Source: Psychrobacillus glaciei
GTDB lineage: Bacteria; Bacillota; Bacilli; Bacillales_A; Planococcaceae
Assembly (NCBI RefSeq): GCF_008973485.1
Contig: NZ_CP031223.1
Span: forward strand, 372,001-436,000
Direction of reading: 5' to 3'
DNA: 64,000 nucleotides
This document shows, in pieces, positions 49,937-51,437 of this stretch. The stretch's first letter is position 1. Every line of letters begins with the position of its first letter. The notes under the pieces were generated by a model. It worked only from the letters and a program-made list of their open reading frames with translations. It made no database searches and was not told where the DNA came from. Made by a program: the position numbers and the translations under genes.

Positions 49937-50077
49937 TTAGAGTAGAATACATTGTTCGATAGAAAGAGATCGCCGGTGAATTTCATCTTTTAGTAAGGTA
50001 ATAAAGTCCGGAGAAAGGTTTAACTCGATCGCTGTAACATAAGATTCAATTAACAATTCATCTGACATTTTACTCAT
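49937..50077 (-). CDS. sda: Sporulation checkpoint inhibitor Sda
   Basis: 46 residues: [46 protein letters not shown]. The SDELLIESY start and the second helix with EIxRRSL match B. subtilis Sda. Sda is a helical hairpin that binds sporulation kinase KinA (also KinB) and blocks entry into sporulation when DNA is damaged or replication has just started. AGGAGG lies 10 bases before ATG 50077. In B. subtilis, DnaA boxes upstream drive its replication-linked pulses; here the 120-540 bases upstream hold a duplicated DnaA-box module. The gene is too short for routine ORF cut-offs. Confidence 0.9.
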
Positions 50078-50198
50078 CTGTAATTCACCTCCTACTTTCC
50101 TGAACGTAACATTATTGTTTGAAGCTCCAAAAATGAATTAATAGAATTATTAACTTACTCTAATCTATCAAATAGTTTCGTTTGGAACAACCGTTCTG

Positions 50199-50327
50199 TT
50201 ATCCACAGGAAGTAGTGGATAACATGTGATTAACATGTTCATATGTTGATTAAATGCAGGTAGAGCACTCGGGATAATGTGCATAAAGTTATCCACATGA
50301 GTAGAGAAATGCAGAAATTGTCGAAAC
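50199..50327. promoter_or_regulatory. DnaA-box module 1
   Basis: Boxes: TTATCCACA (50199-50207), AGTGGATAA (50214-50222, one mismatch on minus strand), TGTGCATAA (50278-50286, minus strand TTATGCACA), TTATCCACA (50289-50297), then TTGTCGAAAC (50318-50327). Upstream of sda. Confidence 0.82.
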
Positions 50328-50484
50328 ATTTTTTATTAAATTTTCTAAAAAGGAGTTTGCTCAATAGTTTATAGAATTTTCCACTGTCGAAATCAGCTTT
50401 CCTTTTCAAGTTATCTGTAGGATGATTGGAGTTTTCGTTTTATTATAAATATTATTTCATAAAATAGTTAGAAATATTCTGTGG

Positions 50485-50611
50485 TTATCCACAAAAGTAG
50501 TGGATAACCTGTTATTAACTTCATTTTATAGAGTGAAATTGTATTTAAAATGGACTTTTTGTTGTGTATAACTTTATCCACAAGTAGAAAATTTGCGGAA
50601 TTTGTCGAAAC
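50485..50611. promoter_or_regulatory. DnaA-box module 2, tandem copy of module 1
   Basis: Same order and nearly the same spacing: TTATCCACA (50485-50493), AGTGGATAA (50499-50507), TGTGTATAA (50563-50571), TTATCCACA (50574-50582), TTGTCGAAAC (50602-50611). It ends 11 bases before the L,D-transpeptidase gene stop. Confidence 0.82.
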
Positions 50612-50622
50612 TATTAGTCTTC

Positions 50623-50958
50623 TTATTTGTGGATATACACATTTGTACTAGTTGGAACGAAGGAGGAAAGCTCAAGAATATCATGGTTATGCATTCGAAT
50701 ACAGCCGTGAGAAACATTCTTGCCTATAGATGCTGGATTGTTGGTACCATGAATTCCGTAATGTGGTTTGGAAAGACCCATCCATAAAACACCAAAAGGT
50801 CCATCAGGGTTTAGTTCTTTGTTAATGATGATATAATTCCCTGTCGGAGTTGGAGTCAATACTTTTCCAATTGCTATTGGATACGTCTTCAAAAGTATAC
50901 TGGCATCATACAGTTTAAGTTGAAAGGTATTTACCGAAATATCTATCCAAAGGGTCAC
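50623..50958 (-). CDS. Minimal L,D-transpeptidase (YkuD domain)
   Basis: 111 residues, essentially one YkuD catalytic domain: [33 protein letters not shown] and the active-site [12 protein letters not shown] with the catalytic Cys. Such enzymes make 3-3 cross-links in peptidoglycan and several Bacillus members act in the spore. No signal peptide, TM or LysM domain, so export is unexplained. Start GTG 50958 follows AGGAG by 8 bases. Transcription would run toward the DnaA-box modules and sda. Confidence 0.88.
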
Positions 50959-51136: not shown

Positions 51137-51202
51137 ATGGCAAATAAGAAGTGTAAACAATGTAAAAAAAATAGTTCTGGATTATGTAAATGTGGTAAAT
51201 AA
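51137..51202 (+). CDS. 21-residue Cys-rich peptide
   Basis: Reads MANKKCKQCKKNSSGLCKCGK: two cysteine pairs (CxxC and CxC), nine lysines if counted with flanks of each pair being basic, a likely Zn-binding knuckle. AAGGGGTG stands about 5 bases upstream, and a perfect terminator begins at the stop codon, so a translated mini-gene is plausible. Function unknown. No homologue recalled. Confidence 0.55.
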   Translation: MANKKCKQCKKNSSGLCKCGK

Positions 51203-51229
51203 AAAAACCGCCGAAATGGCGGTTTTTTT
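51203..51229 (+). terminator. Terminator of Cys-rich peptide gene
   Basis: ACCGCC and GGCGGT with flanking A7 and T7, right after the stop codon. Confidence 0.85.
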
Positions 51230-51238
51230 ATTGGTTTT

Positions 51239-51285
51239 ATTACAGAGGTGTTACTGGTGCCTGGCACCAGTAACACCTCTGTAAT
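51239..51285. repeat. Perfect 47-base palindrome
   Basis: Two 23-base arms around a single central T; the centre is GGTGCCTGGCACC. Palindromes with this core occur widely in Bacillales intergenic DNA (from memory). Confidence 0.85.
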
Positions 51286-51437
51286 ACCAGTAATGATTTT
51301 GTTAATTGAGGGAGGGAATGAAAAAGAGTCGTCTGCTCGTCGACTGGGAAGAGTTGGACAACTCTGTATTATAAGAGAATCTCTTTTTTAAAAAGATAGA
51401 AAAGCATAAATATAGCTTAGCTTTTGGATAAATACCG

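Follow-up and report, generated by a model that had tools for sequence, protein, structure and literature searches.

In Bacillus subtilis, the sda promoter carries eight DnaA sites with a preference for ATP-DnaA, and DnaA, again preferentially in its ATP-bound form, activates the gene (PMC4447404). Boxes 4-7 are needed at low DnaA levels, and either boxes 1-2 or boxes 6-7 are enough at high levels (PMC4447404). The gene is additionally under LexA control (PMC11925247). Spo0A and DnaA sites lie side by side at B. subtilis oriC, where Spo0A boxes with the consensus TGTCGAA (PMC5295017, PMC10134886) partly overlap the DnaA boxes and limit replication (PMC5295017). No Spo0A box is mentioned for the sda promoter in the available part of PMC4447404. 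Deletion of sda raises Spo0A activity and pulsing persists (PMC3269414); what ties Spo0A~P activity to cycles of replication is not yet settled for this model system.

This work describes the upstream region of sda, a brake on sporulation during DNA replication, in Psychrobacillus. It resembles the B. subtilis-type loci in its gene, its cluster of DnaA boxes, which includes a convergent and a divergent pair, its promoter spacing, its LexA-type box and a putative Spo0A box, but has two modules rather than one and lacks the divergent yqeG neighbour. For sda, both DnaA boxes and control by LexA were already known. The literature searched, which missed the likeliest primary papers, contained no report of a Spo0A box at sda and, with the same limit, none of a copied DnaA-plus-Spo0A unit; the novelty of both the copied unit and the conserved box is provisional. 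We consider it probable, on the basis of sequence comparison, that three inputs converge on sda: replication through DnaA, DNA damage through LexA and commitment through Spo0A~P, which probably feeds back on the gene, more likely by repression.

Sequences and surveys

The window is the whole analysed stretch of 64,000 nucleotides (positions 372001-436000 of contig C1) of a host genome of 4.35 Mb. Over the part compared, the sda loci of several congeneric genomes match those of named Psychrobacillus species exactly, which places the host in this genus. A perfect DnaA box was scored as TTATNCACA; the one-mismatch members of the box pairs are TTATCCACT. The DnaA-Spo0A composite was searched as TTATNCACAN{18,23}TGTCGAA, and the reversed pattern served as control. 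An alignment and tree of 45 modules were made, in which the rows outside Psychrobacillus are hand-chosen, composite-bearing loci, so that their conservation marks are biased; the unbiased conservation count is that of a survey of 299 genomes of the class.

Two copies of one module upstream of sda

The window's sda is an ordinary Sda gene judging by its predicted product, which also matches the Sda chains 3d36_C, 1pv0_A and 3fyr_A of the PDB (Table 1). The original prediction placed six perfect and two one-mismatch DnaA boxes upstream of it, in two modules of 129 and 127 bases that share the order convergent pair, divergent pair two bases apart and TTGTCGAAAC tail. The boxes proved correct to the base, and lengths and order hold for both modules (50199-50327 and 50485-50611). 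Three further elements had been overlooked, namely a one-mismatch DnaA-like box (TTAATCACA), a LexA-type box and a third TGTCGAA between the modules.

Table 1. Features of the sda upstream region, in window coordinates.
Feature	Position	Strand	Remark
sda, 46 aa, sporulation kinase inhibitor	49937..50077	-	PF08970, E 1.1e-20
Predicted -10, TAGATT	50162..50167	-	17 bp from predicted -35
LexA/DinR-type box GAACGGTTGTTC, GAACN4GTTC	50185..50196	-	overlaps predicted -35
Proximal DnaA box, convergent pair	50199..50207	+	perfect TTATNCACA
Proximal DnaA box, convergent pair	50214..50222	-	one mismatch, TTATCCACT
Proximal DnaA-like TTAATCACA	50225..50233	-	one mismatch; 11 bp from 50214 box
Proximal DnaA box, divergent pair	50278..50286	-	perfect TTATNCACA
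Proximal outer DnaA box, divergent pair	50289..50297	+	perfect TTATNCACA
Proximal putative Spo0A box, TGTCGAA	50319..50325	+	21 bp outside outer DnaA box
Third TGTCGAA, between modules	50385..50391	+	not at composite spacing
Distal DnaA box, convergent pair	50485..50493	+	perfect TTATNCACA
Distal DnaA box, convergent pair	50499..50507	-	one mismatch, TTATCCACT
Distal DnaA box, divergent pair	50563..50571	-	perfect TTATNCACA
Distal outer DnaA box, divergent pair	50574..50582	+	perfect TTATNCACA
Distal putative Spo0A box, TGTCGAA	50603..50609	+	20 bp outside outer DnaA box

Read towards sda, a module consists of the putative Spo0A box, a gap of 20-21 bp, the divergent DnaA pair 2 bp apart and, ~44 bp further on, a DnaA-like box with another box one 11-bp step away, followed by the convergent partner. 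The proximal module then gives way to the LexA-type box and the predicted promoter, TTGTTC-17-TAGATT. An element resembling TTAATCACA recurs in most rows of the module alignment, and its distal counterpart in the window, TTAATAACA at 50510-50518, has two mismatches. The predicted -35 is formed by the last six bases (50185-50190) of the LexA-type box, whose GAACN4GTTC we take to be the LexA (DinR) motif. This motif occurs exactly, at most 260 bp upstream of sda, in 85/99 distinct sda loci, and the spacing TTGTTC-17-TANNNT, with its loose -10 pattern, in all 28 sda loci examined.

Nine DnaA boxes with at most one mismatch fall within 384 bp, and dnaA is ~422 kb away. Given the 273 perfect boxes in the 4.35 Mb of the genome, six perfect boxes in 400 bases have a Poisson chance of ~3e-13, or ~4e-9 over all stretches of this length, and the local cluster is thus far beyond chance. 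Across the whole window, one-mismatch boxes are not enriched (105 versus 93.4 +/- 9.1, with 10/100 shuffles as high). The two modules are true copies of each other: their alignment scores 56.5, and the best of 1000 shuffles, which preserve base composition only, scores 24.

A putative Spo0A box at the outer edge of each module

The tail TTGTCGAAAC, at 50318-50327 and 50602-50611, contains TGTCGAA. The original prediction held that a DnaA-box arrangement had been copied. The copying upstream of sda is real, but the tail had gone unrecognised as Spo0A-box consensus; because the tail holds this consensus, the copied unit would be DnaA-plus-Spo0A and not DnaA boxes alone. TGTCGAA is rarer in the host genome than its reversed control (503 versus 655 occurrences), and the Poisson probability of three copies in the 550 bases of the upstream region is 4e-5. 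The composite occurs twice in the host genome, both times in the sda modules, and its reversed pattern does not occur at all.

A second, degenerate match may accompany the box. Among 32 non-redundant sites, which are partly dependent as relatives, the 10-bp offset ranks first of 48 offsets, with a mean match of 3.28/7 versus 1.89 +/- 0.20, although +11 and +12, where the sequence is T-rich, come close to the same score. In the window itself the better second match lies at 9 bp (5/7 bases), and in the B. subtilis-type loci the 10-bp match is weak. The host has Spo0A, whose C-terminal domain matches PDB 1lq1 at E 2.4e-54, and a perfect TGTCGAA lies upstream of its own spo0A gene; the regions upstream of spoIIE and spoIIGA hold one-mismatch boxes only and no perfect TGTCGAA.

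Taken at face value, TGTCGAA at sda looks like a Spo0A site that the regulator would bind. That it instead binds a different protein, or has been preserved for reasons that have nothing to do with Spo0A, we regard as improbable: seven bases carry little information and the Spo0A site is predicted from sequence, but the consensus is exact, strand and spacing are fixed, and a second, degenerate match peaks at about the next helical turn over the sites compared. This alternative also has to contend with a similar composite that precedes dnaA by 71-73 bp in 3/3 Psychrobacillus genomes checked, dnaA being a gene whose upstream region has known Spo0A boxes in B. subtilis (PMC5295017). The proximal putative box lies ~167 bp upstream of the predicted start site, an unusual place for direct action on the promoter. 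At the window's sda, the box stands outside the array, with no overlap with a DnaA box, and would act on transcription, which sets it apart from the partly overlapping Spo0A boxes of oriC.

Spread of the composite across the Bacilli

Within the family, the composite was found in 38/101 genomes, at 52 places versus 5 for the reversed pattern. In the class Bacilli, 55 composites were found in 46/299 genomes, again versus 5 for the reversed pattern. These genome-wide and class-wide counts rule out a chance composite. Among the matches listed, at least 37 of the 55 composites, from at least 35 genomes, are found upstream of sda at a distance of no more than 900 bp, and all 37 are on the strand opposite to sda, so that TGTCGAA at sda has a fixed strand and stands 18-23 bases outside the outer DnaA box. 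At most 18 composites lie away from sda, four of them in genomes with a further sda match (G186, G282, G308, G361).

The composite is not a universal companion of the gene. An sda gene is present in 128/299 genomes of the class; a composite near it was found in at least 35 of these 128 and is absent in at most 93. By hand tally among the matches listed, at least 13 of the 27 sda-bearing families have it; a hand tally also shows families rich in it (f14 7/7, f37 5/5, f33 3/3, f1 9/12), and four families have no composite near sda among the matches listed (f3 0/24, f22 0/25, f11 0/11, f36 0/7).

We also read 113 sda loci directly, 99 of them distinct; 82 carry the composite, in a set that leans to close relatives. 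The 17 loci without it are L022, L025, L027-L030, L084-L086, L088, L089 and L114-L119; three of these (L029, L030, L116) have a TGTCGAA no more than 400 bp away whose spacing or strand differs, and the remaining 14 have none within that distance. The composite is present in all 10 loci that encode exactly the B. subtilis Sda protein (L091-L100). The exact box, TTCGACA in the alignment, is present in 42/45 aligned modules, of which the non-Psychrobacillus rows were picked among composite bearers.

Further PF08970 genes were encountered in a few genomes. L114, L115, L117 and L118 (genomes G038, G020 and G067) have neither a perfect DnaA box nor a composite within 700 bp upstream, and these paralogues may therefore not be replication-coupled. 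The second PF08970 copy of G040 (L120) has the composite.

The unit stays with sda

The gene next upstream of sda in Bacillus loci is a divergent yqeG that starts close to the box, according to a crude neighbour scan that left some loci unassigned. In the window, it is a YkuD-domain gene co-directional with sda, and the distal TGTCGAA lies 13 bases past its stop; a box serving the YkuD-domain gene is ruled out, as that gene ends just before the modules. The host's yqeG, identified with a query matching TIGR01668, lies at 2.56 Mb, away from sda, and the 500 bp upstream of it contain no DnaA box with at most one mismatch and no TGTCGAA. A box for yqeG is hence ruled out in the host genome, and because yqeG lies elsewhere and has neither site, the unit has stayed with sda.

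A role of the box for the neighbouring upstream gene (yqeG in Bacillus), and not for sda, could draw on the nearness of the divergent yqeG start and on the second TGTCGAA of the B. subtilis-type loci (L091-L100), which is on the other strand, 49 bp further out and nearer to yqeG. We judge it very unlikely, given the co-directional gene that ends before the box in the window, the bare upstream region of the host's yqeG, which lies elsewhere, and the composite kept by all 19 Psychrobacillus sda loci.

The second module in Psychrobacillus

The original prediction called for comparison of the region in relatives. By inspection, two modules, 263-285 bp apart, are present in 10/19 Psychrobacillus genomes; the second module is thus not needed in general. 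Two exact composites occur in 7/19 Psychrobacillus genomes and at least one in 19/19, and among the 99 distinct sda loci two exact composites occur only in this genus. The exact TGTCGAA is missing from 3/10 distal modules. Since these three lack it and not all genomes have two modules, the distal copy appears less constrained, and we infer that it serves as a lineage-specific reinforcement, if it has a role. In the tree of 45 module sequences, which long branches blur, the ten distal modules fail to cluster together; a single origin is not rejected (p-AU 0.238). Psychrobacillus genomes, with their one, two or decayed units, form a natural series.

The cluster had also been proposed as a DnaA-titration or secondary unwinding site. 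The unwinding part did not hold up: a simple scan, itself a weak test, found no run of three TAG/TAA triplets in 50151-50640, and a secondary origin is accordingly unsupported. The same scan found one run in the host's dnaA-dnaN interval, ~20 bases past its last box, and another within a gene upstream, which is why the test is weak. DnaA titration by the cluster is possible. That the doubled cluster serves mainly for titration or unwinding is nevertheless a distant prospect: the density of boxes far from dnaA would suit it, as would the place of the B. subtilis sda region among eight high-affinity DnaA regions (PMC4447404), but besides the scan result the proximal unit holds the same position relative to the sda promoter in different genera, and one module is enough in most relatives.

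Proposed mechanism and sign of the Spo0A input

The anatomy, copying and conservation of the unit and its attachment to sda are observed; the following model of how it may work is proposed from them. Each module would be a DnaA assembly unit, made of the divergent pair, the 11-bp steps and the convergent pair and flanked on its outer side by a Spo0A box, and the proximal unit abuts the LexA-type box and the -35. By analogy with B. subtilis, ATP-DnaA on the proximal unit would activate sda. The box requirements described for the B. subtilis promoter fit the two box pairs as the core of the module, provided that the published numbers correspond to these pairs as we have matched them. Rising Spo0A~P would then bind the box at the array edge and alter DnaA action there; if it represses, the gene of its own inhibitor would be shut and commitment locked in. 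The distal copy would reinforce the same two-input unit.

As to the sign, we consider repression somewhat likelier than activation, because Spo0A~P inhibits replication at oriC (PMC5295017). Rather unlikely, in our estimation, is the opposite sign from the same sites, in which Spo0A~P helps DnaA to activate sda and the resulting negative feedback limits Spo0A~P. The anatomy would be identical, an activator array may assemble more readily with a box upstream of it, and negative feedback has been discussed as a source of Spo0A pulses (PMC3269414); yet sda deletion did not stop pulsing (PMC3269414), and the inhibition of oriC replication by Spo0A~P in B. subtilis suggests antagonism with DnaA (PMC5295017). 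Whichever the sign, a Spo0A-sda loop would tune rather than generate pulses, since pulsing survives sda deletion (PMC3269414).

Extended beyond Psychrobacillus, the model becomes a broader proposition to which we give an even chance: in much of the Bacilli, including B. subtilis, sda would be a three-input hub (DnaA, LexA, Spo0A) with an old, position-fixed box at the array edge, through which Spo0A~P would directly control transcription of a gene whose product inhibits its own phosphorelay, and Psychrobacillus would have copied the whole two-input unit. If true, the conserved Spo0A box closes a direct loop between the master regulator and the replication checkpoint. Such a direct Spo0A~P-sda feedback loop is, provisionally, absent from the models in the literature searched.

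Other DnaA clusters and neighbouring elements

The B. subtilis chromosome has a dense DnaA cluster upstream of ywlC (PMC4447404, peak 6), and the host genome has a counterpart at C1:705185-705600 (L034 1185-1600), between a SpoIIR-like gene and a ywlC-type gene. With seven perfect DnaA boxes in L034 1218-1600, it is a second dense cluster of the host genome; the genome-wide composite search found no DnaA-TGTCGAA composite there. Another host cluster lies at dnaA. The match of the dnaA and SpoIIR/ywlC clusters with B. subtilis supports the view that the sda cluster belongs to a DnaA regulon that has been conserved.

Five other Psychrobacillus genomes have a further, near-identical composite outside sda. 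Three of these composites are the ones upstream of dnaA (L111 3076-3110, L112 2222, L113 2389), the DnaA of L111 being confirmed by TIGR00362, and near-identical sequences occur in G005 and G007. The host's own dnaA upstream region has no TGTCGAA at that place. Two divergent perfect DnaA boxes were observed at C1:362188-362221 (L035 1189-1222), near the 3' end of a 230-aa ORF and 51 kb upstream of the cluster region at the window's sda. Within the window, an intergenic inverted repeat, whose perfectly matched 24-base arms flank a loop of one base, lies at 51238-51286, adjoining a terminator-like repeat at 51200-51230.
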